A DNA stretch of 64,000 bases, taken from positions 682,001 to 746,000 of the forward strand of contig CM042088.1 in the NCBI GenBank assembly GCA_023512835.1. The letters run 5' to 3'. Below are positions 7,741-48,953 of the stretch, in pieces. Source of the stretch: Taxillus chinensis. Its lineage: Eukaryota > Streptophyta > Magnoliopsida > Santalales > Loranthaceae. The notes under the pieces were generated by a model. It saw only the letters and a program-made list of their open reading frames with translations, did not search any database and had not been told where the DNA came from. Position numbers and translations under genes: made by a program. Numbering within the stretch: the first letter of the stretch is position 1; each line of letters starts with the position of its first letter.

Positions 7741-7743
7741 TTA

Positions 7744-18245: not shown

Positions 18246-18292
<47 letters not shown>

Positions 18293-19330: not shown

Positions 19331-19341
19331 TCCTCCCCACC

Positions 19342-19605
19342 TCAGGACTGATCGTCCTCGAACAGCTCAGGATGAAGAACCCGCATCTGGCTCTCTTTCT
19401 CCCAAGTCTGCTCCTCCATGCCTCGGTGTCGGCATAACACCCGAACTAGTGGGATCATCTTGCCCCGCAAGACCTGGTCCCTCCTGTCCAAAATCTGTGC
19501 CGACATCTCAACAATGGCACCATCATCAGCCAAGTCTATCTCGCGATAGTCCAACACATGAGAAGGATCTAGGTGATATCGTCTCAACTGAGACACATGA
19601 AACAC
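19342..19605 (-). pseudogene. OUT chromodomain-like C-terminus (copy A)
   Basis: Intact frame: FHVSQLRRYHLDPSHVLDY, IVEMSAQILDRRDQVLRGK, IPLVRVLCRHRGMEEQTWE and LHPELFEDDQS, then TGA. A frameshift just upstream (near 19600) separates it from the integrase. In copy B the stop is lost through CAG/CTG changes. Confidence 0.82.
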
Positions 19606-21567: not shown

Positions 21568-21576
21568 GAACTTTGC

Positions 21577-22060
21577 TTACAATCGGTGCTCCCGCAAGGT
21601 CTGCAACACAACCTGCAAATGCTCCTCATGCTCCCTCTTGGTCGCTGAATAGACCAAAATATCGTCGATGAACACCACAATGAACATATCTAAATACGGA
21701 GTAAATACCTGGTTCATCAATCCCATAAATACTGCTGGAGCATTCGTGAGCCCAAACGGCATGACAAGCCACTCATAGTGCCCATAACGACAACTGAACG
21801 CGGTCTTAGGGATGTTTGTCTCCCTAACCCTCAACTGATGGTATCCAGACCTCAAGTCTATCTTGGAAAACCACCTCGCACCGCGAAACTGATCAAACAG
21901 GTCATCGATCCTTGGCAATGGGTACCTGTTCTTCACAGTCACCTGGTTCAGCTTCCGGTAGTCGATACATAGCCGAAGCGAACCATCCGCCTTCTTGGCG
22001 AACAACACTGGAGCACCCCACGGTGAGCTACTCCGTCTAATAAAGCCTCATGCCAATAGA
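21577..22060 (-). pseudogene. OUT reverse transcriptase (copy A)
   Basis: [66 protein letters not shown] and [13 protein letters not shown] are continuous. The catalytic Asp in KIDLR and the FIDD pair are intact. A TAA replaces a Tyr codon just before AKFMKYDFW, closing the frame at 21577. Confidence 0.88.
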
Positions 22061-22068
22061 TCATCTAT

Positions 22069-22872
22069 CTATCTCTTGGGCTCTCCAAGCTTTATCGGTG
22101 CCATCCTGTAGGCCGCTAACCTGATCAGTGTTGTCCCTGGCAACAACTCAATCGAAAACTCTACCTCCCTCACGGGTGGCAAACTAACCAAGTCCTCGGG
22201 AAACACATCCGGGAACTGATCTACAATGGGTGGCAAAACAGCCTTCTCCTCTCTCCTCCAGTCAACCAACGTCAAGCTGGCTAACTGGTGGGTCACATCA
22301 CCCCACCCATGCCTTAAAGGTCCCAACCTACATGCCTCCTCAGTCCATTCACCCACAAAGACACCCCGTGTGCCCTCTGGCGTGAGGAACGTCATGCGCC
22401 GTCGAAAACAATCAATCTTGGCCTTCATGGAGACCAACCAATCCATACCCAAGATAACATCAAAATCATCTAACTCCATGATATACAAATCACACAATAG
22501 GTTAACACCCCCAAGTGTTACCTGACAAGCACGACAGATACTCTCAAGTATCATAATTCCACCCAAAGGTGAAGCAACCATCAGAGACTGACTAAATGTC
22601 TACTGGTCTAACTCCAATCCAACCACCGTAGCATACGAAATAAAAGAATGGGTAGCACCAGTATCAATCAAAACTGAACAAAAAGTATGAGAAATGATGA
22701 TGGTACCTCTCACCACTGAAGGCCCTGCTCCTGCCTCGTCGGGCGATGGAACCTCTGCCTCTCTCCCGGTAAGGGCAAAAGTCCTCCCTCGTGGCCCACT
22801 GCCACTAGCCTGGCCCATTGGGGCCTTGCCCCGCCGATCAACATGACCCTGCGCCTCCCGTGGAGGCTGCAT
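22069..22872 (-). pseudogene. OUT aspartic protease and linker (copy A)
   Basis: TIIISHTFCSVLIDTGATHSF carries an intact DTGAT active site. After the stop following LELDQ it continues LMVASPLGG, LYIMELDDFDVILGMDWL and AKIDCFRRRMTFL, the C-terminal half and linker to RT. Stops then occur before IDDLLA and in place of Trp. Confidence 0.82.
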
Positions 22873-22881
22873 GACCCGCAG

Positions 22882-24054
22882 TCACGTCTGCGTGCATGTC
22901 CCACCTCGGAGGTGGAGCCCCACTCCTCTGCCCTCGCTCTCGGACGAGGGCCTACACCGCCTGGTCGAGCTAAGGGTAACACATTCCCTAGCTCCATGTC
23001 CCACCTTCCCGTATCGGAAGCATGTCATCTTTTTCCTCGGACAGTCTCTCGATACATGCCCGGTTAAACCACAACTCCAACAAGTACCTGGCCTCCTACT
23101 GGCTGAACTCTCCCGGGGTCCCACCGCCTAGCTGGAAACCTTTTGCACCTGCCTCCTCTCAGGCTGAACTACACTGCTCTCCCCACTCTGTCTCTTCTTG
23201 CTTGGACCTACCGAACCTCCCGATCTATAAGCTCTCGACTGATCCTGACCTCGCTCAATAATGAGTGCCTTGTCGACCACCTCCCGGTAACTGGTCAACT
23301 GCATCGGTTCTAGCTGTCTTTTCAGAGATGGCCTCAAGCTCTGAATAAAATCCTGTGTCTTACGGGCTTCCTTTTCCCAAGCCTCAAGAGCAAACCGCCC
23401 TAAATCTGTGAAGGCTTGCACATACTCACCCATAGTCTGGCTACCCTGCTGAAGCTCATAATACTCTCTCCGTCGTGCATACTGCAACAAGCTGGGAAAA
23501 GATTCCCCAAAGAAGCGCTCCACAAACTCTCTCCAGCTCATTTGACTGTCGTGGACAGCTCTAGTGGCTTCCCACCACCTGCGTGGGATACCCAACAAAT
23601 AGTGTGTCGCCACACGCACTCTCTCCTCATCAGGCACCCCGATCATCTCAAAGATGTCCTCTGTCCACCTAATCTAGTCCTTGGCTGCCTCTGGCCGTGA
23701 ACCATCCTCAAAAGTCCTGGGTGCATGTTTCAAAAACTGTGTAGCCTAGTCCACTCCTCGTCGTGCTGGTTCTATCACGACCTCCTGCTGGTGCACATCC
23801 TGCACCACCCTCGCCTCCTGCTGCTGAGGCTGCTGTTGCCTCTTCAGCTCATCCACCTCTCTAGCCATAACCCTCATCGAGCCCTGCATACCTTGCATGG
23901 CCTCCTGCAACTGAATCAACGCCTGAGCCAAATTAGGTCCCACAATGGGAGCCGATGATCTCTCGCTGCAGCTCTCTGCGCCCTTGGTGCCCCGACTCTA
24001 TCGTGGGCTCCTCCGCCGAGCCCTGGCCTCGGGCAACCCTCCTCGGTGGTGCCA
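22882..24054 (-). pseudogene. OUT gag with zinc knuckles (copy A)
   Basis: Leader MAPPRRVARGQG, a Q-rich segment (RQQQPQQQEAR), then MIGVPDEERVRVATHYLLG, WWEATRAVHDSQMSWREFV, FFGESFPSLLQYARRREYY, MGEYVQAFTDLGRFALEAWE and KRQLEPMQLTSYREVV. One full knuckle, CWSCGLTGHVSRDC, is followed by a second of form CFRYGKVGHGAREC. Stops interrupt it after ARRGVD and VSS, again at Trp or Gln codons. Confidence 0.85.
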
Positions 24055-24537
24055 TCACACCTGGTCATAACAACAAACAAGAAATAATCAATACTAGCAT
24101 CGCTAAGACCAACGACCATCAAAGGCACAACTAACTTGTAAGTTCTCACCACACGACCCGTAGGTCCATACCATGCATAGAGCATCGTGTCCCCCATCAG
24201 GGTACACCACATGACCCGTAGGTCCACAACCATACATATAGCATCGTGTCACCCCATAGGGTACACCACAATCCGATCTTGGCTCTCACGGCCACGTGCC
24301 CTTCAGCACCAAATGCAATCACATCACACACAAAGACAAATCTAGTACCCTAACTGCACACAATCATACCACTAGGAAAGCATCCATGCCTACATATGCT
24401 CCTAGGATGATCTAACTAACACCAACATAACCTAGAATACATGTAAGGACTGCGTTGATCAGGCGCCCTCCCTACAGTTTTCCAAGTCACATAGAATCAA
24501 TTAACCACCCCTCACTAACCTAGGTCCGCTAGACCAT
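24055..24537 (-). other. OUT untranslated leader (copy A)
   Basis: About 480 bp between gag start and PBS. It contains two similar stretches, each with CATAGAGCATCGTGTC- or CATATAGCATCGTGTC-like words and GGGTACACCACA (about 24170-24270), a short internal direct duplication. No frame is credible. Confidence 0.55.
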
Positions 24538-24549
24538 GCTCTGATACCA
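24538..24549 (-). promoter_or_regulatory. Primer binding site of OUT (initiator Met tRNA, copy A)
   Basis: TGGTATCAGAGC on the minus strand, three bases from the 5' LTR edge at 24553. Confidence 0.9.
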
Positions 24550-25847
24550 ACGTGTCACGCCCCCAAATTCCAGGGAACCCGGAACTAGGAACATGAGTTC
24601 CCCTTGCCCGCGCCCGAAAGGTCAAGGGGTTGGTGACTAGCACCAATGGAGACTACAACGCGGGTACTGTCTCAAATATACAACCCTGTACAGTCATACA
24701 TCAAGGGTAATCCTGTACTTTCTCATATATTATCATGCATACAATGAGTCGAACAGTCATACAGACATCACATCACAAACAGTACGCAAATATAACTATC
24801 CATGGACCCATGTCCGGGATATCACACAAAATAATACAAAATCTAATACTGTATGATACATCAGAGTAGTGGGCGTCCTCCTGGAAGAAAGTCCTCCACT
24901 AGTCTCGGGTCACACCTAGAAAGAGATAAGCAACAAGTAGGGGTGAGCGACAAGCTCGATAGGTGACCCCAATACTCCACATCATGCAAATATACAAGTC
25001 TATACTACATGCTCTGTGTACTCGTGCACTGTGTAGTGTGCACAATCATCACGACTCAGCCTGCAAACAAACATCAGGACCTAGCCTGCCCACACAGGAC
25101 AGCTTGTCCACAATCCTCCATGGGATCCCAGCTCAGGGCACTCAGCCCTAGCTCCATGAGCTCAACGGCTCAACTCAGGCCTTAGCCTGTCCACAGCGCA
25201 ATATGCCCGGCCACAATCACCACACAGGCCTGCCATCGGCGCATATGCTTGCCACGTCAACCACATAGCACCATCGGTGCACCACGGTGAGAACCTAAAC
25301 AAGTCACGGAGTCCATGCCCCAATACCTCACACCAACATACTAACATTAGTATGACATGTCATTCTCAATATTTCGTTTAGAACTATAGCCAGTCTTCAC
25401 AAGTAAATCCTCAAGCCTTGATTTATGAAGGAAGTACCCATAGTAGCTATTTTCTTGAAATCAAAAGTACCGGCATTGGGTTCCCATATCATAAATAAGA
25501 TAATCTGATTTTTGGGGATTTTTCTGAGATGTCTAACCCCACTTTCCAAAAAGTCACCACTATGAACTTTTGGATTTTTCCGAGATTTTACACTAAAACC
25601 CAATTTTCACATTTTGAAATAGTGGGAATTAATTTTTCTAGTATTTTTCTTTGAATCCAAATGGGGGGTATTTCGTTATTTACATTATAACTTAAGTATA
25701 ATACTTGGCATAATGGTTTACAATGTAAATGTCTAGTGCGATGCCTTCTTTGCGGAACATCTGCTGTGAGATCATCACTTGGAAAACAGTCATGGAACGG
25801 ATGCTACGGAAACAACTTCAGCGGAGCGATGCTACGGATCATCGCCC

Positions 25848-25938
25848 GATCCGGACTGCGATCCGGACTAACTACTCCGGACTAATCGCTCCGGACTCTG
25901 GATCCGGACTAACTACTCCGGACTACGATCCGGACTAA
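25848..25938. repeat. ATCCGGACTA minisatellite in the OUT 5' LTR (copy A)
   Basis: Repeats of ATCCGGACTAACTACTCCGG. Copy B (53225-53318) has CTGATCCGG where copy A has CGATCCGG, one of the CTG losses. Confidence 0.8.
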
Positions 25939-26488
25939 CGAAGCTGCTGACTCCACGGCTGCTGACTACGAACTTCGACCCTACAGTCCGCCCAGGGTAC
26001 TGTTCATCATCGTTTTTGGCCTGATTTTCATCTGGGATCAGCCCAGCAACCCCTAGGCACTCACAAACACGCGTTTTACTAAATAGAGTACAAAATTACG
26101 TAACCAAACTGATATAAATCCGTTCTTAACCATAGATTTTATGCTAAATCATCATATCTAACCCCAAAATTGGGTTTTCCCCAAAACCTAGGTTTCATGA
26201 TCAAATTCATAAATCATGATAAATTCACGCATATTCCAAGACAGAATCGAGATAAGAGGTTCAAGGACACCTACCTAGAAGATTATTTGTGATCCACGAG
26301 CTCCAATCGCTCCAAAATCGCCAAGTAAAGCTCTTTACCTTCTCTCTTTCTCTCTCTTGCTCAAACACGCACGCACCAAGCAAAATAAAGGGATAATGCA
26401 GTTTCTTAATTATTTATATTGCTGCCAATAATTGGCCTCCCAGGAATAATTGACCCGAACGTAATAATTGACCTCCCGAGGTCACGAA

Positions 26489-26953
26489 TGTAACGACCCA
26501 TGAGTGGGTGTTAGTCCCACATTGCTTGGTGAGGAGAACAAAGTCCGCCTTATAGGAGGGGACGGATACCTCACCTCACAGGGACGCGTTTTGGGCAAGG
26601 CCCAAAGACAAAACCGTGCGGAGCGGGCCATGAGGGCGAGGCCCAAGACTGGTTGGCCAAAGCGGACAAAATTCTTGTGACGGGTATGGGCTGGGCTATC
26701 TCGGATGGTATCAGAGCGAGACCCGAAGCGGTGTGCCATGGTCCCATGGGGACGTGGGCCTCCTAAGGGGGGTGGATTGTAACGACCCATGAGTGGGTGT
26801 TAGTCTCACATTGCTTGGTGAGGGAGAACAAAGTCCGCCTTATAGGAGGGGACGGATACCTCACCTCACGGGGGACGCGTTTTGGGCGAGGCCCAAAGAC
26901 AAAACCGTGCGGAGCGAGCCATGAGGTCGAGGCCCAAGACCGGTTGGCCAAAG
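26489..26953 (+). mobile_element. TRIM-like miniature LTR element inside CHIM (copy A)
   Basis: First LTR from TGTAACGACCC at 26489 to about 26705, containing AGTCCCACATTGCTTGGTGAG. The PBS TGGTATCAGAGC follows at 26706-26717. A body of about 60 bp ends in CCTAAGGGGGGTGGAT, and the second LTR starts at 26778. This second LTR stops at TTGGCCAAAG near 26953, missing its last 40-50 bp. No coding capacity. Non-autonomous; TRIM class inferred from size and order. Confidence 0.75.
26706..26717 (+). promoter_or_regulatory. Primer binding site of the TRIM (copy A)
   Basis: TGGTATCAGAGC, the same initiator tRNA-Met site used by IN and OUT, here on the plus strand. Confidence 0.8.
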
Positions 26954-27134
26954 GGTTGTTTGTGAGATTCGAATATGTGTTTCCCTATCATGCTTGTGTT
27001 GTATTGGGTCACGTGGGTACGTGCCTTCATGTGTGTTATGGTGTGATATCTTCAATCGCGGGTATGTGAATGGTTGTGGGCGATGTGCATCAGCATGTGC
27101 GTTTTGGAAGGTGTGTTGTCTTTTAGAAGCCGAC

Positions 27135-27215
27135 ACGTCCTGCAGAGGAGACATGGAATGTGAGTCCATGATGCGTGAACAACACCCAGCATTGTTCGAG
27201 GACGAACAATCTTAA
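27135..27215 (+). pseudogene. Chromovirus pol C-terminal remnant in CHIM (copy A)
   Basis: The last codons read DMECESMMREQHPALFEDEQS then TAA, aligning with the IN tail (ETWECETEMRAHYPDLFEDEQL). Upstream sequence to 26954 does not resemble the rest of the polyprotein. The pol gene is thus 5' truncated to about its last 25 codons. Confidence 0.7.
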
Positions 27216-27561
27216 ACGTGGGAGGTGGCTGTTGGTGGCTGTTGGCCAAGGGATAGTGATGTGTTTTCTTGTATTAGTTGTGTATGATTTGGTGTATTTG
27301 TTTTGTCTTTTAGACATGTGTTCATATTTGTGATGTGTTTTGAGATGTGTATTTGTGACATGCGGATATGTGTTATATGCATTATTGTGATGCATGTGGT
27401 TATGGATAATGGTGGTACTTTGTTATTTGCCGTTATGTACTATGCGCGGTGTATGACCCATTTGGGTGTTGTGGCTCACCGTGTGGCAAATGGGTAGCTT
27501 GTGTTTATTTTCCTCGTATGTCATTTCTTTTCGAGGACGAAAAGTCTTAAGGGGGAGAGGA
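27216..27561 (+). other. CHIM 3' spacer and polypurine tract (copy A)
   Basis: T/G-rich spacer ending in TTCGAGGACGAAAAGTC and the polypurine tract TTAAGGGGGAGAGGA, flush with the LTR at 27562. TTCGAGGACGAA also occurs at the pol stop (about 27195-27206). Confidence 0.7.
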
Positions 27562-28115
27562 TGTAATGACCCGTGTGTAAGAAGTTAACCACAAACACCT
27601 TGGATGTTGGTGCACAAGTTTGAGGTAGGAGATGAGCCCAAGAGGGGACTTTTGGGAGGTGCATGTGACAAGTGATAACGTACCTTTATGCCCTAGGAAG
27701 ATGCTATGCGTATACATGCGGTTTTAAGGCTTGTTTTGGCTGATCTTGGAGCTCACTTTTGATAGGGTAGATGGCCTCAAACAATTGGCGTGCAAGAACA
27801 AAAGTTTCTTAGAATGAGGTCCTCTACCTACCACAGAAATTTCAGAGCATTTGGAGTTGCACGTGAATTCACCCATTTCACGTGCAAGCATATTTTTGCT
27901 TCTCGGCCTCTACAAGATGCAAAGAGGCTTGGGGTAAAGTTTGAGTGCATTTGGAGCTACACGCCAATTGGGGAATTGGCGTTCAAATTGGCGTGCAGGC
28001 ATATTTTTGCATGGTTACCTTAGTTTTGTTATTCTAATCATCTTTTCCCAAAGGACCAGGTTGGAATAGTGAGTATTTTGGTGTGTATGGATGCGAGAAG
28101 GTGGTAGCTTGTGTA

Positions 28116-28174
28116 ATCAAAACTACGTCGTTTTGATCCTGGGTTTCACTTAATCAAAACTACGTCGTTTTGAT
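28116..28174 (+). promoter_or_regulatory. ACGT-core palindrome pair (CHIM LTR, copy A)
   Basis: Two 22-bp copies directly upstream of AGTCTATATAAGG. Same spacing logic as in the IN LTR on the other strand. Confidence 0.7.
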
Positions 28175-28463
28175 AGTGGGAAGTCTATATAAGGATGAGG
28201 AGACTCCTTGTTTTAGGTTTAGGGTTCTCTTCGAGTGCTGCGGCCCGTCGTGGAGAGAGAGAGAGCTAGAGAGAGAGAGAGGAAGGGGAGTTGCTGGGTT
28301 CTTGCCGGAGCATCTTGCGTGGGGAGGACGGCATTTAGCGAGGGAGCAAGGAAGATCTGCTTTAAGGTAAGGGTTCTATCTCACCTGATCCGTTGCGGGG
28401 GTTAGGCCCTGTGTAGAGGATTTATAGAGCTTCTCTTGTTATTGTTATAATATTTATATGTAA

Positions 28464-28493
28464 ATTCAAATAGGTGTGACCTCCTATATGAAT
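28464..28493 (+). promoter_or_regulatory. Conserved LTR hairpin (CHIM LTR, copy A)
   Basis: ATTCAAATAGG pairs with CCTATATGAAT with one mismatch around an 8-base loop. Relative to IN both arms changed C to T/A together at the third pair (ATCC/GGAT to ATTC/GAAT), so pairing is kept there. Confidence 0.75.
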
Positions 28494-28848
28494 GTTGGCC
28501 TTCAATGGCGATTTTTGATGTTTTCCGGTGTTGGATGGTGAGTGCATATTAAGTGTTCGATAAAATGCCTGTGTGAATATGTCTGTGTGAATATGCCTAG
28601 TAGGTGTTTGATAATATGCCTGTGTGGCTGGGTTTGTGGGTTTGTGAATGTATGCATGTCAAGCGTTAGGGTAAAATACCTGTGAGACTACGTATGCCAG
28701 GTGTTTGATTTTATGCCTGATTAGTTGTGCGAACTAAGTGTTTGGTATTATGCCTGTGAAAGTGTGTATGCTACGTGTTTGGTTTAATGCCTGTGTGACC
28801 TTGTATCTTTGTGTTTGTGGAACCCGGTGGCTGTGGAAGCCCGGGACT

Positions 28849-29090
28849 AGAACTGTTAGCCCGTTTGGCTAAGCCTGAGTGGCCGTGGATATGTTAGCCC
28901 GTGTGGCTAAGCCTATATGGCCGTGGAACCTGTTAGCCCATGTGGCTAAGCCTATATGGCCGTGGATATGTTAGCCCGTGTGGCTAAGCCTTGAGAGGCC
29001 GTGGAGCTGTTAGCCCGTGTGGCTAAGCCTTAGAGGTCAGTGGATATGTTAGCCTATATGGCTAGCTTTGTATGGCCGTGGATATGTGTG
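28849..29090 (+). repeat. 37-bp minisatellite in the CHIM LTR (copy A)
   Basis: About six units containing TGTTAGCCCGTGTGGCTAAG followed by CCTATATGGCCGTGGATA or a variant. Confidence 0.85.
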
Positions 29091-29829
29091 TGCCTGTGTG
29101 ATTGTGGAACACAACCTATTTATATCTTATTGTCACTACACTTTTTACACACCCTCATGTAGACGCTAGGAGCATGGGATGGCTTGGGGAGACATGATCC
29201 ATACTTGAGTCGTGGTTGCTCACCCCTCCCTCTATGTTGTGTTTTCTTTCAGGAACATACAGGCGTTAGGTGGGACCCCAAGGTGGAAGACCTTATTTAC
29301 TTTATTGTCTTCCATTTATGTTATTTTTATGGGAATTGATGTAACCCAAGTGGGGATGGATTGAAAAGAGGATTTTGTTGTAATAAAGACTGGTTTGGAT
29401 TGTGGATCGCTTTATGAACATTACTTTCTTGAATGTGTTGTGGATGTTTAAAATGTTATATTCGGGGTTTGCACCCTAACCCCTTTGCCCTCCGTGTGGG
29501 TAAAGGGAGTCACGTACCGGTTTCCTCGGGTTGGAAATCCGGGGCGTGACAACGAACTCCAAATTGAGCCCAATTACTGTCAAAACGCTCGAAATGACGA
29601 GCACAACAGTATTCAGATATTATCACACTCAAATGACTGCCCAAAGATAAAGTCAACCAATAAACCCTAAAAAGTCAATAATCGGGTCAAACGGGGCCCC
29701 GACTCGGAATCGGGCCCAAGTACAGTCAAAATGCTCACATCGACGACTACACTACCGTCTAGATAGTTGCATTCCCATAGAATGGCTATCTCTCAAAACT
29801 ACCCCAATACGAGTCTTTACAAACCATAT

Positions 29830-31443
29830 ATCATCACTCTTCACCGTCGTATAGTAATCAACACAGGTCAGGTCCAATAAAGAGTGCTTCATAGGCACAA
29901 GTCCGCACGGTGGTGTCCCTAACAATATAGCTATTGAAAGCAGAAAGTTCAACTGAGCTGGCTCCTGTAGTCATAGTGCGCAGTGGTACCATTAGTGTGG
30001 TGGTGGTAGTAGCGGCTGGTTTAGTAGGGGAAGCGGGCATGGTATACTCAGCCATACTTGGATGGGTTATTGAGGGACCATGTTGAGTGGAGGATGAGGT
30101 TTGGCCTGGAGTAGCCAGATGTGTCTTCATGTGGGTTCCGATGGGCACATCATCATCATCAGAATCAGTGTGCACACTTTCGCCCACAAGTATAGGTAGC
30201 TTCATGTCGCGGTTGTGGAGAAGGAGAAGGTTGAGGTGAAGTAGTATGAGGTGCCGTAGGGCCGGGAGCAGGGCTGGTTGAGGTTATAGGTTCATCAATG
30301 GGAACCGGCTCAGGTCTGTCCTTAGAAATCTTTTGAGGTGGCTTCATGGTGAGAGTGATCTCTCCACGATCCGATCGGCCGCGAGGCTTCGAAGATAGGA
30401 CCCATAGTTTTAAGAAATCCCTCATGATGATTCTTGTACGCCTCCTTTATGTCTTCACTGTGGTTCTCAATGTGTTTAAACCCTTCGGTGCTTACTCGAT
30501 GAGGGATTCCGGTTCGAGTCTTGACCCTTTCTAACTCAAAGTTAGAAAGTTCAACTTCATTTACGAGCTTCTCCATTCCCTCCTCCACCGCAAAAAACCG
30601 TCCCTCGGTTGCTTGAATGGTAGGTGTGAAATTTAACAGTCCAGACGTGGTCAGTTTTTCCAATACCTTGTCAGCAATACAGTCCACTTCCTCAGCAGTA
30701 AAGGAGCGCAAGTGAGAGGTGGAAGCTAATGGAATGGTTGATGGGATATGGGAGGTTAAGTCCTCACTCCTCTGAGTGACCACTTGATGAGTCTCCGATT
30801 CAAGTGGCGTGGTCATCTCAGGCACCTCTACATGCTCAGAAGCAGGTGGTACTTCCTCTGCATCAGAGTCACTTTCGGCTTCAACAATAGGTGCCTCCTC
30901 CTCTTCCTCAGCATTCTTAGCCATCTCAGCATCATGGGGAGTTAATATGTCAGGAGTTTCGCCCATGATAGGAGATGGGGCAACCATCGAGATAGCTTCC
31001 ACTGGGTCTCTCCTCACAAGACCCTGCTCTACCAACCAACCGATTAGATGGTCTCTATCTACCATCTCGCTTGCCAAAGGTTATCCATACCTTCCTCAAC
31101 TTAGTGGGGGTCATGTGAGCTTTGTCATACTCAACATAAGAGTCCTCTAGCTCGGACTGTCCAAGAGAACTTAGCGAGACAGGTAATGTACCCCTAACCT
31201 CGGGGTTTTCGGTCTGGTGGTGGCCTCCGGTTGTAGGCTCTCTTATCTCTGCATTATTACTGGGCCTATCAACAGGATGAGCTTCCTCTGGTATAGGATC
31301 AGTGCGGAAACAAGTTCGGACAATGTTCTCCATCACTTCAGCTATATGGACCGTTGCAGTAGACACAGAGGATGCTCAAGAAGTCTGAGGACCAGGTGCT
31401 GCTCGACTTGGTCTAGGAGCTGGTGCTCTTACATAACTTGCAG
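29830..31443 (-). pseudogene. Unrecognised acidic, coiled-coil frame trapped between insertions (copy A)
   Basis: I do not recognise this product. In minus sense, after the Athila LTR edge at 31443, sequence reads SYVRAPAPRPSRAAPGPQTS, a TGA, then VSTATVHIAEVMENIV. The copy B version shows a long frame with an acidic stretch (EEEEEAPIVEAESDSDAEE), a coiled-coil segment (about FTAEEVDCIADKVLEKL to IKEAYKNHHEGFLK) and a Pro/Ser-rich tail. It then shifts frame into KLPILVGESVHTDSDDDD and a Ser/Thr-rich end near 29858. Copy A adds frameshifts at CAG/CTG sites. The frame is cut at its 5' side by Athila and lies 31 bp from OUT. It may be part of an older element. Confidence 0.5.
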
Positions 31444-32765
31444 TGTTGATAGGATTGCATCCTATCTATATTTTGCATGAGTTTTAATATTTATTTCCCC
31501 TATTTTATCCTTTATTTGCATGGTTTGGGAACTTTGTTTCCCGTTTTACCCCTAGTCTTGTTTTGGAGTTTTTGTAGTGTTTTCTCTATTTTTGGCGGGA
31601 ATCGAGATCAATGTAGGGGAAGTTGGATTTTATGGTCAATATTTGAATGGAGTTTTGGAAAGCGAAGAGAGAAGATCGATATATAGTCGATGTATGATCA
31701 ATGTGTAAAGTTCTTTACTGTGCGGTTGGCGCGCTATGGAAGATCGATGTGGCTCAATGTAGATCGATGCCAACATTTAATGTAACCGGCCGACACGAGA
31801 ATGCGGTTGATGTGGCTCGATGTGGTTCGCTTTGGATCGATGTGAAGGCTGGTCGACCTGAGATAATGATCAACATAGTCAATGTGCTTTGGTAAATGAT
31901 CAACGTGGGTTATTTGTGTTCGATTTGGGCTCTAATGTTTTAAACCCTATTATTTAATTACAACAACTTGTGTTTTTGGTAGAGGGGGGACGGGACGATT
32001 TCTCTTGGTTGTTTTACTGTATCTTTGATAGAAGAACATTCATTGATTGTAAAACAGTTTATGTTAATTGAACTTTGTGCTTTGATTTGTCAACCCTTTT
32101 AATGGAATTTATATTTATTTTGATTGTTGTTATGACAAGCATGATAGGCTAAGTTTCCATTCTAGGGAGGAAGTCTTAGGGCTGGATTACTCCTGTCATG
32201 ATTTTAATGGCTTAATATCTTCTAAATGGTTATAACATTGGATTTGCTTTGGTTGGGTGCATAATGCTCTCATCTTACAAAGGTTGATGGAGAGAATTGA
32301 TTTTAGTGTGATTAGCTGAAATACAACTAAAGCTTGATAAAGAAGAGTGAGGAATGAACAAACCCATTTAACTTTATTATATCAACCTAAAGGTGTGTAT
32401 CACGGGAAAAGGGTATTACATTTAAAGGAAGATTAATCTTAATGTGACCAGATAGGAAGAATAAATTATTGGTAAAACATAGAGAAATTCAGCTCTATTG
32501 GCTTCATCCCTAGACTCTCATATCGTCGTCATTACATTGTTATATTTCTCCATTTGTCAAATTGTTAGTTTGAATAACTTTGTTTAATTCATATAAGTAT
32601 TTGAACAAAATACATGATTTCCCAAACATATTTAGAGTTTGCCAATCTTAGTGCTTATTAATTAATATAATTAATCCTCGAGGGATCAATACACTGAGGT
32701 CGAGATATACCTCTCTTTATTACTTGACCTGTGCACTGCAGTAAGCCGTAAAATTTCTTCGATCA
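31444..32765 (+). repeat. 5' LTR of an Athila-like element (copy A)
   Basis: About 1.3 kb, proposed ends TGTTGATAGG and TTCGATCA. The right edge is fixed by the PBS seven bases later; the left edge is inferred from the end of the trapped frame. It contains loose repeats of GATCGATGTGG (31675-31850). Confidence 0.65.
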
Positions 32766-32771
32766 AGTTTT

Positions 32772-32789
32772 TGGTGCCATTGCCAGGGA
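32772..32789 (+). promoter_or_regulatory. Primer binding site of the Athila-like element (Asp tRNA type, copy A)
   Basis: TGGTGCCATTGCCAGGGA resembles the TGGCGCCGTTGCCGGGGA site typical of Athila/Tat elements, with several C-to-T and G-to-A changes that suit old methylated DNA. Confidence 0.75.
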
Positions 32790-32974
32790 TTAATTGTGTT
32801 AAGTCTGAAGAACATTAAGACTAAGAATAATATTTGTGCTTTGGGTTGTTTGTATTGTGTTTTTCGCAATTTAATTTCTTTTACTTCTTTGTTGAGCAAT
32901 ATCACCGGGTTTCTTTTCTTTTCTTTGTTACTTTTTGCGATTACTTTCATTCACTTCAGGTGTTTCCTTCGTGT

Positions 32975-35171
32975 ATGCATCGATCTCGATTGCGAGAATT
33001 AATGCCATTTGATTTAAAACATGAAAGGACATTGAGAGCCGGGTTAAGACGAAGCGGTGTGATCAAACAGAAGTTAACCATACTAGCATCTTTGTTCTAG
33101 ATAGTATGGCGAAGGGTAGGTTCATAATGGAGAGACTCACAATGGAGATACTCGACCAAGGACTTTGATGGATTTTGCTAGACCATCTATCTCTGATCAT
33201 TATTCGGGCATTCATAGGCAGCCGATGCAAGCGGCTAATTTTGAGTGAAGCCCGCTCTAATTCATATGGTTAGTCGGCGACAATATGGAGGCATGGGCAG
33301 TTGAGGATCCGCATGGTCATTTACACCATTTTACGGAAATATGTGATACCTTAAAGATGAATGGTGTTTACGAAGATGCTCCAAGGCTTAAACTCTTTCC
33401 TTTTTCTCTTAAGGATAGAGCTAAGCAATGGCTTCATTCACTACAACCAGGCAGCATTCACACATGGGCTGATCTTGCGGACAAATTCTTATCTAAGTTC
33501 TTTCCCCGAGTTAAGTTGATACGGTTGAGAGGAGGGATTGGGGTTTTTCAACAAAAAGATACTGAATCTCTTTATGAAGCGTGGGAAAGATTCAAGGATC
33601 TAGTACGCCGATGCCCACTAGATGGGTTCCCCGAATGGTTTTGGATTCGGTCTTTGTTTGTGGGTTTAACACCTCAAATGAAGGGAAATGTTGATGCGGC
33701 GACGGAGGGGCTTTTATGTTAAAAGAACTAGGCTGAAGCAAGGGAGCTATTAGAGAGAATGGCTCTTAATAATTATCAATGGCCAAATGAGCGAGGTCTG
33801 TTCCTAGCAAGAGTATAGCTGCAATGACTGATAATCGGTTGGGTGAACTCACAAATTAAGTGGATCTTCTTACACAACACATGACGGCTATGGTAGTGAG
33901 AATGGGAGGTCCTATTGATAACACGGTTTTGGAGACAAATTCTTCTACCATGATTCCGGTGGAGGAGGCTTTGTATGTGGGAGGCAAGGGGTATTATCGA
34001 AGTAGAATATTCATGGTGGCCCACCTCCCCGGACTTATCATCCAAGCAACGGGAATCATGAGAATTTTTCATGGTCAAATCGAAGAATACTTTAAACCCT
34101 CATCCATTTCCTTCCACACCACTAGGGATTGTCCAACGACCATCTCGACCTCAACGATTTCGATCCACGGCGACAATACCAACAACGGCCTGGAAAGGAG
34201 AAGGCTACGATGATGAGATGAAGCAATTTTTTCATAAATTTGCACAGCAAACCCACTCCCAACTTGAGAGCACAGATGTTAAGCTCAATGAAATGAAAGT
34301 CGGGATGAATGATTTAGATGCTATGAAAAGGGTTGGAGTAACAAATGGGGCAACTTGCCAATATAGTTAATGCACGGCAAAAAGGATCTTTCCCCAATAA
34401 TACTAAAGTGAATCCAAAGGAATATTGCAAGGCGAGTTACATTAAGAAGTGGAAAAGAGTTGTCATCCCAAGTTAATAAGGAATTACCACGACCGATTCT
34501 TGAGCAGCTCGAACACGAAGTAGAGGAAGGATCGGGGCAGAATACAAGAGAAATAATACCGGAAGATGAAATAGTAGAGGAGACTTCCAAGCTTATTGAA
34601 GAGAGGTTTGAGGATTATCAACCGGGTATTCGATTTGTAGACAAACCTCTTTGTTGAAGACACCTCTACCATTTCCACAAAGAGTTAAAGAAACAAATGG
34701 TGGATGCGGGTTTAGCTAAGTTTTGGAACTTTTCAAGAAAGCGGAGATTAATATCCCTCTTGTATATGTCTTCTGAGTATTCCTAAAGCGACAAAGTATT
34801 AAAAGACTTTGTATCTCAAAAAGGAGGCTAGAAAGATTGTGAGCTTGATCACTCTAACCAGGGAAACTAGTCCTATTGTCCAACATGTCTTGCCTCCAAA
34901 GTTGAAAGACCACAGGAGTTTTACTCTTCCTTGTACTATTGGAGAATCACGATTCCCGAGGACTTTATGTAATCTTGGAGCAAGCATAAATTTAATGCCA
35001 CTTGCGGTCTATCAGCTGTTGGGTTTAAGCTGGGATGAAACCTACTTCTATTTCATTATAGTTAGCGGACAAATCAGCAAGCTTTGAAGGAATTATTGAA
35101 GATGTACTAGTCAAGGTGGATAAATTCATATTTCGGCAGATTTTGTGATTCTTGATATGGAGAATGATAAA
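32975..35171 (+). pseudogene. Athila-like gag-protease, truncated and frameshifted (copy A)
   Basis: Starts MHRSRLRELMPFDL. The gag core is in 33285-33722: AVEDPHGHLHHFTEICDTLK, LKLFPFSLKDRAKQWLHSL, FLSKFFPRVKLIRLRGGIG and TESLYEAWERFKDLVRRCP. The protease site reads LCNLGASINLMPLAVY (about 34970-35010), Asn replacing the catalytic Asp of DLGAS. Compared with copy B it carries many extra frameshifts at CAG/CTG sites. It ends at the duplication junction, so no RT or integrase is present. Confidence 0.82.
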
Positions 35172-35291
35172 TATATAGGTGAATATCCTAAAAACAGGAG
35201 AGTTAGAGAACATGAACCCCTACCTCGGGCTTTTGTCCTAACCTCCACGCTAGATAGCTCCCAACGACGCGAACCAACACGTGCCCGCCCG

Positions 35292-35334
<43 letters not shown>

Positions 35335-35410
35335 GGCAAGAATTGCAGAAGAAAGGGACACAATAACCCTAAACTCAAACTCAAGCCCTCATTATATAGA
35401 CACTACCCAC

Positions 35411-35468
35411 ATCAAAACGACGTAGTTTTGATTAAGTAAACCCAGGATCAAAACGACGTAGTTTTGAT
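35411..35468 (-). promoter_or_regulatory. ACGT-core palindrome pair (IN 3' LTR, copy B)
   Basis: Copies at 35411-35432 and 35447-35468, unchanged from copy A because they contain no CAG or CTG. Confidence 0.65.
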
Positions 35469-36111
35469 CACACAAGTAACACCTTTCCACCCATATGGGC
35501 CAAAATACTCAATTTCAACATGGTCCTTTGGAGAAAGATCATTAGAATGTCAAAACCAAGGAACCATGCAAAAATATGGCTGCACGCCAATTTGCACGTG
35601 AATTCCCAATTCGCACCAACTCAAATGGACTCAAATGCTCTCAAACTTCACCCTAGCCTCCTTGCATCATTTAGAAGACAATCACACTTGCACGTGAATT
35701 GGACCCATATCACGTGCACCTCACATACACGTCTGTTTGGCCTGAAACTTCGTGGTGAATGTAGGACATCATTCTAAGCATCTTTCCTTTTGCACGGAAT
35801 TCATTTGAGCCCATTCACTAGGTGAAAATCTAGAAAAACTCTACTCGAAGGCAAAACTATGACTAACCGTGACTAACTCAAGGTACGGGTCCTTACATCC
35901 TCTCCCCTTTAAGACTTTTCGTCCTCGAAAAGAAAAGGTGGAATGAAAGAAAACAATCACAACCAAAGCATAGGCCTCTAACACCCACTAGCACAAATTA
36001 ATACACAACAAAGCACAAATTATTTCACACATTTATACACTCTACATGGTCATAACTAGTTGGGCAAGTACCTGATTATGTTGAAGTTTGATGCTTGCCC
36101 TCCTCCCCTCC

Positions 36112-39100
36112 CTTCGAGTTGTTCGATCTCGAACAAATCGGGATAATGAGCACGCATCTCGCCTCCACATTCCCGGGTCTCTTCCTCCGTTCCTCGGTGT
36201 TGCCACAACACCCGAACCAACGGAATAGTCTTACCTCAAGCAATTGCCGCGCCTATCTACAATACGGATGGGGGCCTCGACAACCGACACATCCTCTCCA
36301 AGATCCAGGGTACCCCAATCTAGCACGTGTGGCGGATCTGGATGATATTTCCGTAATTGGGATACATGGAAAACATTATGAACTCTCTCAAACTAGGTGG
36401 TAACGCCAACCGATAAGCAACAGTCCAACTTCGCTCAAAATCTCGAACGGTCCAATGTACCGAGGGGACAACTTGGACCCGGTCCCAAATCTCTTATGCC
36501 CTCTCCGTGGAGAAACACGAAGGAATACGTGGTATCCCACCAAAAACTCCAACGGTCGGCGTCGCTATCCGCATAAGACTTCCCGCTCCGAGCTATAAAG
36601 GCGTTGCCGAATCTTGAACTTTGCCGTAGCCTCCTGGACCAATTGAGGTCCTAACATAGTCGCTCTCTCCAACCTTGCCCAACATAATGGAGACCGGCAC
36701 GGTCGGGCCATACAATGCCTCAAATGGGGCCATCCCAATCGAAGACCGGTAATCGTTATTATAGGCAAACTCCACCAGAGGAAGGTGGGAAGCCCATGAT
36801 CCTCCAAAATCAAGTACACAAGCCCTCAACAAGTCTTCCAATGTTTGAATGGTCCTCTCGGACTGACCATCGATCTCAGGATGGAATGCGGTACTCAAAT
36901 TAAGTTGGGTTCCCAATGCTTCTGTGAGACCTCCCCAAACCGGGATGTAAACCGCGCAAGATCCGCCCGAAACAATAGACAAGGCACTCCGTGAAGCGGA
37001 CAATCTCATCAACATACAAATCGCTTAACGTGCCGATAGAGTCGCGCTCTCGAATTGCCAAGAAATGGGCTGACTTAGTTAAGCGGTCCACTATGACCCA
37101 AATCATGTCCTTTCTCCCAAGTGGTAGGAAGTCCCACACGAAGTCCATGGTAATATGCTCCCACTTCCACTCACCCACAGTAAAGGCCGCAATCGACCGG
37201 CGGGTCGTTGGTGTTCTGCCTTCACTTGGCGCAGGGTAAGGCACACGGAAACAAATTCGCTACGCTCCGTTTCAGCCCCGGCCACCGGAATCGTGCGCGA
37301 ACGGCATGATACATCTTAGTTCCTCCTGGATGTACAGCCAAACGGGAATGATGAAATTCCTCAAAGACATCCTCACGCAAGGGAGGTGGTACTATCAGAC
37401 GCCCTCGAAATTTCAGCTCATGCTCAACTCCTTCTGGTCGATCCTCGACGGTCTCACTCCGGCCTATCTCGGGCCCGGATCACCCTCACCATCCCACGTC
37501 GCCCTAACCGTCCCTCACGGACACGCTGATACAACTCTGGGTATCACGGTGAGAGGACACAGATAGCTCCCTCACTCGAAAGAAGAGGTTGCACCTAAGC
37601 AACTTGCCAACTGCTCCATCATTTTCCATTCTCTCATGGAAACCTCAGCTTTCCTTTTCTACTTAGCGCGTCGGCCACTAAATTTCCTTTCCCAGGCGTG
37701 TAGAGAGCGTGAAGTCAAACATTTGCGGTACTCGACCCACCTCCGTTGTCGCAAATTTAGGTCTCGTTTGGGTGAAGATATCTTGTAGGCTTTTGTGGTC
37801 AGGTATATACCACAAATTTCTCTCCCCAACAGGTAATGTCGCCAAGACTTCGGGCAAAAATAATCGCTGTTAACTCCAGTGTCGTGTGTTGGGTAGTTTT
37901 GCTCATGGGACTTCGGTATGCCGCGAGCCATATGCTATGACTTGGCGCTCTTGCATCGAACACACACCTAGTCCAACGCGAGACGCATCACAATACACCT
38001 CGAATGGCACTCCCTCCTGCGGTAGACTCAACACCGGTGCGGTAGTCGGGCGAGTCTTCAACTCCCTCGAATGCCTGCCGGCACTTGTCCGTCCACTCGG
38101 TTGGCTCCCTTCCGTGTAAGAGCCGTCATAAGTGCGCCAACCGAGAAAAACCCTTCCACAAAACGCCGATAATACCCCGCGACCCAAGAAACTCCGGGAT
38201 CTCAAAAACATTTGTGGGCCTCTTCCAAGATGCTACGGACTCAATCTTGGTTGGGTCCACTCTAACTCCTTCGGCAGATACTACATGCCCAAGAAAATGC
38301 ACCTCTCGCATCCGTAGTCACACTTGCTAAATTTAGCATACAAGTGATGATCTCGTAGTGCCTGCAGCACTACGCCCAAGTGCTCCTCATGCTCACTTGG
38401 GTTTTGGAGTACACAAGGATGTCGTCAATAAATACCACCATGAAGGAATCCAGGTATGGGGCAAATACCGATTCATTAGATGTATGAACACAAGGAGGTG
38501 CGTTTGTGAGCCCAAAAGGCATCACTAACCACTCATAGTGTCCGTATCCGCACCTGAACGCCGTCTTAGGGATGTCTTCGCTCCCCGACCCTCAATTGGT
38601 GATATCCCGAACGCAGACGATTTTTGAGAACCACCGTGCTCCACTCACTGGTCGAATAAGTCATCAATCCGCGGCAAAGGGTACTTGTTCTTTACCGTTA
38701 CTTGATTCAAACTTCCGATAATCAATGCAAAGTCGCAACGAACCATCCGCCTTCTTAGCAAACAAGACCGGTGCACCCCAAGGTGAGGTACTAGGACGGA
38801 TAAAACCTTTATCTCCCGCCTTTTATCTCGCTTCAAGCTCCCGCAACTCAACGAGGTCCCATCCGGTATGCTACTTGTGAGATGGGTCCCACCCCGGCAA
38901 CAGTTCAATCGTGAACTCGACACTTCGTGTGGAGGCAACTCCAACAACTCCCAGGAAAGACATCCCGGAAATTCTCGACTACATCTGGCCACACCCTTTT
39001 CTCTAAGTTACCTTCCTCCTCAAAGGTTAGGGTGGCAAGCCTATGGGTAATATTGCCCCATAGCTCCCTCGTCGGTCCAGCTCTCCAAAGATCCCTATCC

Positions 39101-40869
39101 CATTCACCCACTATGGCACGGGAAGATCCGTGGGTGTAGTAAACGATACTCGTCGCCTATAATAGTCAATCTTAGCCTTAAAGGCCATCAACCAGCTTCA
39201 TCCCCGTAATCAAACTAAAGGTCCTCATGGGCATTACGTACAAATCAAATGAGAGGTCAACCTCTCCTATCGTAACGCACACTCTCGACACATTTGGTGG
39301 ATCAACTCCACACCTCCCATTGGGGACTCGACCCTCGAGGTCTATCGCCCTCCACACAATCAAGTCCAAGGCTCTCCACCAAGGACTTAGCAATCGGGGA
39401 GCACGAAGCTCCCAGATCAAACAATGCAAGAACAACGGTGCGAGATATTAGAATAGTACCTCGAACCACCGAAGGTCCAGCTCCACCTTCCTCGGGGGTG
39501 ATGGTAGATCCTCCATTCCGGCTGGTCGCGAGGTAAGCGCTGAACACTCGCCTTGGCCTGCCCCACCACTAGCTTCACTTGCCTTCCCTTTGCTCCCGCT
39601 TGAGTCCACTGGGACGCCCCTCCGATCCTCCTTGTGGTTGCCTCTCCCCCGTGGCCTAGTGTGGACCGGAACCAGCCGACCGGCCTGCCACGAATGTGCT
39701 GGCTTGGGCCGGGGCTCGAAATTGGGTTCCACCCCCGCTCCCTTGTGCTAAGCTTCCAGCTCCCCCGCGGTTCCCCTTGTCAAACACACCTTGCTGATGT
39801 GTCCCACCTTCCCACAGCTATGACACGTCAAGATCGCTGCAGCACTCACGTTGACGTGCCCCGATAGGCCACAACAGTACACCCGCTTGGGAAGTTCCCG
39901 GCGAAGACTCCCCGTCCCTCCAAAGTAACGGGATCCAGGGAGCCATTGAAGCTTGGCCCCTATCCTTGGGAAAAGTCCCACTCCCGGGCTCAACCTTCCG
40001 CCTCTTGTTTTCACCGTGCTTGTCGCGCGCGCCTGCCCCATCCGCTCCTGGTGAGCCTGTCTTCCCTCCTCTAATCCTCTCTCAACAATCTTGGCGGTGT
40101 CCACGACTTCAAAGATAGGTCTTGGCTGCAAGATCTCCACCCTTTGCTTAAGGGCAGGTTTGAGACCCATGGTAAACTTATGGGCCTCCGGGTCCTCCCT
40201 TGATATTGCTTCGGAGCAAACCGACTCAGCCCCCTGGAAATCTCGCTCATACTCTGCTATCGAGCGCGATCCCCGTTTCCAAGGCGAACTCCTCCCACTT
40301 CGCCACCGCAATGACTCGGAAAGAACTCCTCATGGAACAGCTGGAGGAACTCATTCCAGGCCATGGTCTCCATGTCCCGGCTTCCGAGATGCTAAGCCAC
40401 CATTCCAAGGCTTCCTCCTCCAACTGCCGGACTGCTAGTCTCACTTTGTCTTCCTCTCGGGGGTCGAAGAAAGGAGAACACATGCTCGATCCGCCGCGAC
40501 GTGCTCGCTCCCCTAGAGGTTCGGCTCCTCCCTTGAACCTCGGTGGATGTTCCTTTCGGAACCGCTGTCCAACACGTCTCCCTCTTCCCGCCTCACCGAC
40601 ACTTCCCCGCCCACACGGAGGTTCCGCCCACGGGGTGGAGGGGGTGGCACCGCCTGTCGTGCCATCATCTCCTGACGCACCTCGTTTAGGATCTCTCCCC
40701 CGAGGTCCTCACGCATGCCTTGCACGTTCTCACTTAGGGCCCGGACTTGGGCCATGATCCGCTCCAGGGGATCATCGCCTCTACACGCTGTCCTCTTCCC
40801 TCTCCGGCACGGGCGTAAGATTCATCTTCTACGCTTGGAGTAGCTCGGGTTACTCTCCTAGGAGGCATA
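36112..40869 (-). pseudogene. IN gag-pol polyprotein, heavily frameshifted (copy B)
   Basis: Same polyprotein as 8716-13496. Gag: 39748-40869, with an intact knuckle CHSCGKVGHISKVC near 39800. Protease: 39178-39547 with ALFDLGASCSPI. RT: about 38400-38992 with KKADG-like and MPFGLTNAP remnants and FIDD near 38425. RNase H: 37659-38211 with [13 protein letters not shown]. Integrase: 36565-37300 with [12 protein letters not shown] and [12 protein letters not shown]. The tail is lost in frames and the stop is altered. Most differences from copy A are at CAG/CTG, so this copy should not be used to judge decay. Confidence 0.8.
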
Positions 40870-41331
40870 GTCTACATAATTTAAACCAAACTAGGATCAG
40901 CTTCTCTCAAGCTCTACACACCCTCATCCCCATGGGCCATGAGGTACTCAAGCAACATTTTACATTTAAACACACAGGTAAATCACAAGTACACAAAGAG
41001 CTTATTCATAAGCAACAAGCTTCACGAGAAAATCACCGAATTTCACAAAGAACAACATTTTGTTTTTTTTTAGCAACAAGTTTCAAAGAATATAAGCATG
41101 TCTAATCACAATACTTATACTGAAATTAAACTAGTGCCCTAATGCCAATGCATGTATGCACCCTCAACCCAAATACAAATGCCCTACTCCTTGGTCTAAC
41201 TACCCCCGAGTACACCCCGAAAACCAAATAGGACCACGTTGATCGGGCGTGTCCTATACCGCCTCCTAAGAGTCTCAGAAGCGACAGTGCCTCCCCACTA
41301 TCCTAGGTCCACTAGACCATGAACTATCGCT

Positions 41332-41339
41332 CGATACCA
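41332..41339 (-). promoter_or_regulatory. Primer binding site remnant of IN (copy B)
   Basis: The plus strand reads GCTCGATACCA where copy A has GCTCTGATACCA. The CTG to CG change deletes one base of the site. An example of the copy-specific errors at a conserved functional motif. Confidence 0.65.
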
Positions 41340-42572
41340 TATTGTCACGCCCCAATTTCCTTCCACTTGGAAATGAGTAGTGGATCGCCCATGCCCGCAC
41401 CCGAAGGGACAAGGGGTTGGTGCAAGCACCTTAAAAGGACTTCTAGCACGGGTGCTGTCCCAAACCCGCACAATCAGCTAACATGCCAAGGGGCATGCTC
41501 CCGCTCCCAAACCATGCACACAAACACAAATTGAATAACAACATCTCATTTTATTTCATTTCAAAGACTAACTGTTTATTACAACCCAGGTGGGGAAAAA
41601 CCCTATGAAGCCATCAATAAAACCAAACCAAAATCCAAACACATAAAACCAAAATACAACAAAGGAAATAATATAAAACTTTCAGCCTCAGGGGCCTAGC
41701 TCCTCAGCCCTTCACCTACCGCTTTCCTAAACCCTGCAAAAGAACAATTTATAGGAGGGGTGAGCAAACCACGGCTTCGCAGGGGATCCGGTCTCCCCAG
41801 ACCCATCCCGCTCTACAACATGCATGATATGTGTATGCTTGTGCTCGTGTCGTGCCTAAGGCTAACGCAGTAAACATCACCCAGGAAACACTCTTTACCC
41901 GAACCCGCACCGAAGGGTAGAGGACACCCCGCCACCACGGCGACATGACATACCACATTCAGGCGAATGTTGCATGGACACCAATGCAACATTTTCCACC
42001 CGAGTCGGATATGGTCAACCACCTCCTCGGGCGCCATACCTACCCTCGGGAATGGGTGTAGACTTAGCCCACCGTTGTGAGTGCTACACCGAGACTCAGG
42101 ACCACGTCCTGGCCAAATCTCAAAGGGGTCCAGCTATTGTGCCTGGCCCATATCTCAGCTCAATCTCAAACAGATCAACGAAACAAGATAACATTACATC
42201 TCAACATGTAAACTCAGCACATCATTTACACTTTATCTCGAAGGACCAACATGGTCAGATACAAGCCACACACATCAGCCTCATAGGCTTAAAATCAAAT
42301 ACAAATCAAACACAAGACACACCAGATCACAGGTATATCATCAAACACCCATATACAAGGTCTCACGGGCATTATATTGAATACATGGCATGCGGGCCTC
42401 ACAGACATTTCATCAAACACATAGTGTGCGGGCCTCACGGACATTTCATCAAACACATGGTGTGCAGGCCTCACAGACATTTCATCAAACACATGGTGGG
42501 CATAAACAAACCCGGAAAATCCTCAGGCCAAATTAACATCGTAATCAACAAAACATGCCACTGAAGGCCAAC

Positions 42573-42602
42573 ATCCATATAGGAGATCACACCTATATGG
42601 AT
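42573..42602 (-). promoter_or_regulatory. Conserved LTR hairpin (IN 5' LTR, copy B)
   Basis: Same perfect 11-bp stem and AGATCACA loop as in copy A. Confidence 0.85.
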
Positions 42603-42746
42603 TTACATATATATATATATATAGGTGAATATCCTAAAACAGAGAGGAGAGTTAGGAGAACATGAACCCCTACCTCAGGCTTTTGTCCTAACCTCCACGC
42701 TAGACGGCCTCCCAACGACGCGAACCACCACGACAATCGCCCGGAG

Positions 42747-42807
<61 letters not shown>

Positions 42808-42879
42808 GGCAGCAGAAAAAGAAGGGACACAAGAACCCTAAACTCAAACTCAAGCCCTCATTATATAGACACTACCCAC

Positions 42880-42937
42880 ATCAAAACGACGTAGTTTTGA
42901 TTAAGTAAACCCAGGATCAAAACGACGTAGTTTTGAT
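42880..42937 (-). promoter_or_regulatory. ACGT-core palindrome pair (IN 5' LTR, copy B)
   Basis: Copies at 42880-42901 and 42916-42937. Confidence 0.65.
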
Positions 42938-44509
42938 CACACAAGTTAGCACCTTTCCGCACCCATATAGGCCAAAATACTCGGAATTTCAACATGGTCC
43001 TTTGGAGAAAGATCATTAGAATGTCAAAACCAAGGGAACCATGCAAAAATATGGTCGCACGCCAATTTGCACGTGAATTCCCAATTCACGTGCAACTCCA
43101 AATGGACTCCAAATGCTCTCAAACTTCACCCCTAGCCTCCTTGCATCATTTAAGACAATCACACTTGCACGTGAATTGGACCCATATCACGTGCACCTCA
43201 CATACACGTCTGTTTGGCCCGAAACTTCGTGTGGTAGATAGAGGACATCATTCTAAGCATCTTTCCTTTTGCACGTGAATTCATTTGAGCCCATTCACTA
43301 GGTGAAAATCTAGAAAAACTCTACTTAGAAGGCAAAACGTGACTAACTCAAGGTACGGGTCCTTACGGTGTATGACATGTCATTCTCAATATTTCCTTTA
43401 AAACTATAGCCGGTCTTCACAAGTAAATCCTCAAGCCTTGATTTATGAATGAAGTACCTATAAGCAGCTATTTTCTTGAAATCAAAAGTCCCAGCATTGG
43501 GTTCTCATATCATAAATAAGATAATCTGATTTTTGGGGATTTTTCTGAGATGTCTAACCCCACTTTCCAAAAAGTCACCACTACGAACTTTTCGGTTTTT
43601 TCGAGATTTTACACTAAAACCTAATTTTCACATTTTGAAATAGTGAGAATTAATTTTTCTAGTATTTTTCTTTGAATCCAAATGGGGGCTATTTCGTTAT
43701 TTACATTGTAACGTATAATACTTGGCATAATGGTTTACAATGTAAATGTCCAGGCAAGGCACTCTTCAGGAACACTCTCGCGGATCATCATTTGGGAATG
43801 GATTCTCAGAAAACAATGCTGCAGAGCGATGCTACGGATCACTGCTGCTGATCCGGACTACTGATCCGGACTAACGAAGCTGCTGACTCCACAGCTGCTG
43901 ACTACGAACTTCGACCCTACAGACACGCGTTTTACTAAACAGAGTACAAAATTACGTACCCAAACTGATATAAATCCGTTCTTAACTACAGATTTTATGC
44001 TAAATCATCATATCTATCCCCAAAATTGGGTTTTCCCCAAAACCTAGGGTTCATGCTCAAATTCATAAATCATGATAAATTCACGCATATTCCAAGACAA
44101 TATCGAGATAAGAGGTTCAAGGACACCTACCTGGAAGATTATTTGCGATCCACGAGCTCCAATCGCCCCAAAATCGCCAAGTGAAGCTCTTCACCTTCTC
44201 TCTTTCTCTCTCTTGCTCAAACACGCATGCACCAAGCAAAATAAAGGGACAATGCAGTTTCTTAATTATTTATACTGCTGCCAATAATTGGCCTCCCAGC
44301 AATAATTGACCCAAACGCAATAATTGACCTCCCGAGGTCATGAACTCTAAATTGAGCCCAATTACTGTCAAAACGCTCGAAATGACGAGCACAACACTGT
44401 TTAGATATTATCACACTCAAATGACCGCCCAAACACAAAGTCAACCATTTAACCCTGAAAAGTCAACAATCAGGTCAAACGGGGCCCTGACTCAGAATCG
44501 GGCCCAAGT

Positions 44510-48944: not shown

Positions 48945-48953
48945 GAACTTTGC

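Follow-up and report, generated by a model that had tools for sequence, protein, structure and literature searches.

CAG- and CTG-bound differences between two tandem copies in Taxillus chinensis: very likely miscalled methylation at a probable false duplication

The window analyzed here, a stretch of 64,000 nucleotides from Taxillus chinensis (C5:682001–746000, contig CM042088.1, in the 521-Mb, 264-contig assembly GCA_023512835.1), holds two adjacent versions of one sequence and raises the question of whether the differences between them, and the duplication itself, belong to the plant or to the assembly. Self-alignment of the window gives one long direct tandem pair, of ~27.4 kb and 96.9% identity, with copy A at 7755–35171 and copy B at 35167–62556 (these and the features below lie on the plus strand unless stated otherwise). 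The 867 differing columns were grouped into 523 events. At the junction (35155–35175) the end of A (..GATAAA) is joined, with a 1-base overlap and with no N at 35167, to the (TA)n tract in a long terminal repeat (LTR)-like repeat that forms the start of copy B. An earlier note on this DNA had proposed noisy consensus rather than mutation as the source of the differences. We agree that they are almost certainly errors, because of their sequence context, the failure of a deamination test, the testimony of six LTR and 27 gag paralogs and of protein homologs, and the presence of the same signature at three other pairs.

Sequence context of the differences

With B as the reference, 70 of the 135 CAG triplets (52%) and 47 of the 114 CTG triplets (41%) are altered in A 26500–35166, compared with 3/169 for CAA and 1/162 for CTT, the control triplets in the same interval (CAG plus CTG 117/249, CAA plus CTT 4/331, p = 4e-46), indicating that the differences concentrate on one motif. 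This is the trinucleotide-context count that the earlier note had called for, and it bears out the concentration at CAG and CTG claimed there; the two example sites given in that note are present as well, at 28233/28242 and 33051/33056. The next-ranked triplets, GCA, AGC and AGT, can overlap CAG, and CWG (C[AT]G) is altered whatever its flanking base. When A is taken as the reference the most altered triplets become CGG, CGA, GCG, CCG, TCG and ACG, and therefore CWG has been lost and CG mostly gained. New CG is produced at 64 of the 70 altered CAG but at only 26 of the 47 altered CTG, and CGG/CAG and CCG/CTG are the most frequent single changes. The outcome is visible in the matched stretch A 32600–34600 / B 59975–61979, which contains 62 CG and 24 CWG in A against 18 and 71 in B, with an observed/expected CpG ratio of 0.75 in A and 0.23 in B.

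The association extends over the whole pair. Counting an event as near CWG when C[AT]G lies no more than 3 bases away in either copy, 118/143 events qualify in A 26000–35172 (chance 11.8%), 87/110 in A 16450–26000 (chance 16.9%) and 152/270 in A 7755–16450 (chance 11.0%). Only 25 of the 143 events in the first of these zones lie away from CWG, the copies being nearly alike otherwise, and the last zone has more general noise, with CAG and CTG ranking highest with A as the reference and CAG with B as the reference (A 7755–16400). Ordinary paralog pairs look different, with no CWG nearby at 26/36 events for L003/L005 and at 102/158 events for L015/L016.

CpG deamination would be expected to convert CG to CA or TG whatever the next base, and this expectation is contradicted by the isolated substitutions in A 26500–35172, where 24 of 27 CA/CG changes are at CAG (p = 5e-12) and all eight TG/CG changes are at CTG (p = 2e-7), the CG variant always being in A. 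In the other two zones isolated changes of these kinds run in both directions, still nearly all at CWG. For comparison, five ordinary paralog pairs summed have 17/59 CG/CA or CG/TG changes at CWG.

The erroneous copy and the course of the damage

Paralogs elsewhere in the genome identify the copy that carries the wrong bases in the part of the alignment that covers the right-hand end of A. Six LTR paralogs match B at 29 of 30 events (27.56–29.55 kb), and 27 gag paralogs do so at 27 of 28 events (28 were taken besides the window's own two, and L042 was dropped as too short). The open gag frame of copy B (PF03732, 60496–61236) was used to polarize A against B at the protein level: the score is higher on B than on A for 120/120 of the gag homologs listed, of 301 found, and among the 24 gag codons that differ, 8 are synonymous, 4 are shifted and were excluded, and the 12 nonsynonymous ones favor B at 11 and A at none, with one tie. 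Copy B also has a 402-residue open frame (57537–58748), the longest listed frame at the matching place in A having 252 residues; it has no Pfam match and no homolog at E 1e-3, and so could not be used as a polarizing marker.

A single change point fits the 305 informative events best when it is placed between A 25819 and 25842, with B intact in 107/109 events to its right and in 68/196 to its left. In the one-sided damaged end of A (25842–35166), 123 of B's 272 CWG sites are damaged, 57/79 in 33000–35166 and 66/193 before it (bins summed), and this damage is clustered (84 runs compared with 135.6 expected) and densest at 33–35 kb (53/70 at 33.0–35.0 kb). The damaged start of B (35167–43823) ends sharply, since the event at A 16447 / B 43823 is followed by the next only at A 17070. 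In the corresponding part of A (7755–16450) A is intact at 91 events and B at 36, and hence A is damaged there too. A three-way comparison with the related repeat at 6479–8471 gives 15 B-private, 7 A-private and 16 third-copy-private changes, with 18 positions where all differ; three of the B-private changes run in the opposite direction, with CAG in B and CGG in the other two copies, so that each copy may hold errors.

Between these two ends the damage changes sides. From A 23940 to 25842 the direction is even at 13:13 (A-intact:B-intact), a zone that combines 23500–24500 (0:8, A bad) with 24500–25420 (10:2, B bad), and further one-sided patches alternate at 19000–20700 (10:0), 20900–21500 (0:6), 22500–23000 (0:6) and 23000–23500 (4:0), those within 19000–25420 spanning 0.5–1.7 kb each. 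Three 500-base bins, starting at 16500, 19500 and 26000, have no A/B difference at all. In the last of these (26000–26499) 0/10 CWG sites are damaged, and the undamaged part at 26.0–26.5 kb is mostly a repeat with four copies in the window (26063–26488, 95% identical to 16541–16966), which would fit a supply of extra polishing reads. The earlier note had described one continuous, one-sided block from 23.9 to 43.85 kb, opposite a clean copy. Its right edge, near B 43.82 kb, stands, whereas its left edge was placed about 2 kb too early; B is nearly clean beyond A 25842, A is not clean in 7755–16450, opposite the damaged start of B, and the alternating patches, outside the block and inside its left part, do not bear out a single one-sided block.

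The same signature occurs at other pairs. Among the 41 gag matches listed (40 candidates scored of 395; one match on C1 that falls into two pieces is not taken as a pair), four pairs have both members on the same chromosome and under 50 kb apart, and all four have one-sided CWG loss: the pair in the window and those on C9 (L043–L047, C9:42983523–43020000), C2 (L048–L050, C2:48175157–48198000) and C1 (L051–L054, C1:54980001–55025101). The members on C9, C2 and C1 were first spotted by their CG gains, yet they are all such pairs among the matches listed. On C9 two consecutive copies, each at least 17.9 kb, repeat with a period of 18.6 kb; the first copy is intact at 70:6 before 42995000 and the second at 41:12 after it, which is the layout of the window pair, with a flip of the intact side and with noise to the left and right of the junction. 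The ratio on C1 is 159:30.

CAG to CGA and CTG to TCG are mirror images, and their ratio, used as a strand test, comes to 28:5 for the A block (26000–35172) and to 7:17 for the B block (A coordinates 7755–16450; p = 2.8e-5), and two companion strand tests lean likewise (p = 0.04 and 0.07). The damaged start of B thus has the opposite strand bias to the damaged end of A. If one read strand dominates a thin contig tip, the flipped ratio would mean two tips from opposite strands and not one read, which disfavors the idea that a junction gap was filled by a single raw read, although the flip is not repeated on C9 and C1. Because both flanks of the junction are noisy and their strand biases are opposite, the tandem duplication, which the earlier note did not call into question, is itself suspect, and the bias of the two halves suggests two contig tips placed end to end, and hence a false duplication.

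Proposed origin and competing explanations

Plant repeats carry methylation in the CHG context (H being A, C or T), and stock base-calling models are trained mostly on CpG methylation. If nanopore reads of native plant DNA were called with a model acquainted with 5-methylcytosine mainly before G, a methylated C in CAG or CTG would be decoded as CpG, turning CAG into CGG, CGA or CG and CTG into CCG, TCG, ACG, CG or sometimes a TTG-like product, and these CpG miscalls could be left unpolished in the consensus. The block would straddle the junction as the thin, poorly polished tips of two contigs covering one locus, and such tips, laid end to end with their overlap unmerged, would create a false tandem duplication (homotype false duplication). 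Polishing reads drawn to whichever copy was locally cleaner would leave the other noisy, producing alternating one-sided patches. Judged from the motif and from PMC6591954, CHG methylation is very likely the cause of the errors, and the same evidence points to nanopore as the platform. A false duplication, of one kind or the other, is likely, and the whole account (unpolished nanopore consensus with CHG called as CpG, plus homotype false duplication) is held with moderate confidence. The block would then be an artefact of known kinds.

Several observations weigh against this account. CCG is likewise a CHG triplet and is scarcely altered (1/42). The 118 of 270 events in A 7755–16450 that have no CWG nearby mean that part of the noise there is of another kind. 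One LTR event sides with A (1 to 0), as does one gag event (16 to 8). In the last bin before the junction only 4/9 A CWG sites are damaged. In the B half, CWG damage by kb does not rise steadily toward the junction, being 4/6 and 12/18 beside it and 6/21, 9/15 and 7/13 in the most distant part. The strand flip is not repeated at the other loci compared, where CGA:TCG is 9:6 for one part of C9, 10:3 for the other and 16:17 for C1. The C2 pair is one-sided (60:13) without any flip of sides over the part compared, and the C1 copies are only 94.2% identical, with 182/400 events away from CWG. Six comparisons between loci found no coincidence of damaged sites beyond chance (smallest P = 0.078). Finally, a real and very young duplication with bad polishing would look much alike.

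That last alternative, in which the duplication is real and CHG miscalls persist because reads used for polishing could not be assigned to one copy or the other, or because the junction gap was filled with raw reads, is unlikely but has some weight. It is consistent with the direct join without N, with the near identity of the copies otherwise in one part (1.42 non-CWG substitution-type events per kb at 26–35.2 kb) and with the alternating patches, which would also arise from reads picking one of two real copies; on the other hand, the flip of strand bias at the junction makes a single gap-filling read improbable, and noise is found on both sides of the junction both in the window and on C9. 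A heterotype false duplication, with two haplotypes placed in tandem and true allelic differences added to the same errors, is somewhat less probable again. Such duplications are described in PMC8081667, and the non-CWG events in 7755–16450 could include alleles, but the bins without any difference and the few events off CWG in 26–35.2 kb do not favor two haplotypes. Real mutation, in which methylated CpG kept in one copy would have turned into CpA or TpG in the other, has a negligible probability. The commonest single changes do have this form, and ordinary paralog pairs in this genome do show CpG changes; against it, deamination needs no third G and produces neither CAG to CGA nor deletions to CG, and the paralog and protein comparisons both locate the change in A.

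Under the account of miscalled CHG methylation a further reading is possible, which we put forward tentatively. Since a CpG-trained caller would write the CHG methylation of plants as spurious CpG, unpolished copies may serve as accidental records of this methylation in which each damaged CWG marks a methylated cytosine, the damaged sites of A 25842–35166 then being a clustered set of such marks, and one-sided CWG-to-CG change in near-identical neighboring copies may flag false duplications genome-wide.

Consequences, setting and comparison with known systems

The A/B differences are unfit to be read as evolution, because they appear to be misreads at marked CAG/CTG and because copy B is possibly an assembly mistake. 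Any attempt to date the duplication, to call pseudogenes or to measure CpG content in this pair would mislead, the last because the observed/expected CpG ratio over the matched 2-kb stretch reads 0.75 for the damaged copy but 0.23 for its partner. The earlier note's caution that frameshifts here should not be taken as decay holds for the A/B differences and does not extend to the minus-strand polyprotein, where A and B share a stop within the frame at corresponding positions (A 20105/20106, B 47483/47484), which may be real decay and not error. The pieces of this polyprotein (reverse transcriptase, RNase H and integrase; 19584–20747 in A, 46962–49424 in B) are open frames that abut in one frame at the stops. 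Occurrence of the signature on C1, C2 and C9 means that this assembly has several such places, and one-sided CWG-to-CG change between near-identical neighbors is a test that requires the assembly alone.

The window is rich in retrotransposons, with gag, protease, reverse transcriptase, RNase H and integrase domains, and most of the gag homologs with a named source come from plants. One gag protein (P0067), 47% identical to that of the window, is recorded under Salmonella sp. gx-f9 and is probably plant DNA within a bacterial record. An LTR retrotransposon-like unit at 6479–15972 has 2-kb direct repeats (6479–8471 and 13964–15972, 96%) flanking minus-strand open frames; copy B begins within the left repeat and hence does not include its first part. 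A large inverted repeat (88% over ~1.5 kb) occupies 4890–6434. At the right breakpoint the coding sequence in B runs 12 bases (62557–62568) past the point where A breaks, as it does at 17 of 28 paralog loci, so that a transposon end was rejected as the cause of this breakpoint; beyond those 12 bases B diverges from the paralog loci.

The open literature searched, with the terms used, yielded no account of a plant nanopore consensus in which CHG appears as CpG; PMC6591954 and PMC8081667 back the two halves of the explanation separately. In the former, Dcm motifs make up ~70% of consensus errors in Klebsiella pneumoniae with default models. As proposed for our case, 5-methylcytosine in C(A/T)G (CCAGG/CCTGG) met a model untrained for it and the errors survived into the consensus, whereas the bacterial motif is a fixed pentamer and the plant errors occur with any flank and mostly produce new CpG. 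The modification errors corrected by Modpolish (PMC10687267) are similar in that a modification absent from training leads to consensus errors tied to particular motifs (GCAGC, GCTGG) and dissimilar in that they concern Listeria, with no duplication. Plant methylation has been proposed as one reason for lost accuracy of stock nanopore models in plants (PMC9749173, the main text of which is without CHG, CAG or CTG). PMC8081667 describes false tandem duplications at contig boundaries, where reads align to the better copy and the other is poorly polished. Those homotype duplications have a gap between the copies and are often of read length, unlike the 27.4-kb pair without N in the window; on the reading proposed here, both would have one locus present twice in tandem, with the duplicate drawing reads away and leaving the poorer copy behind.

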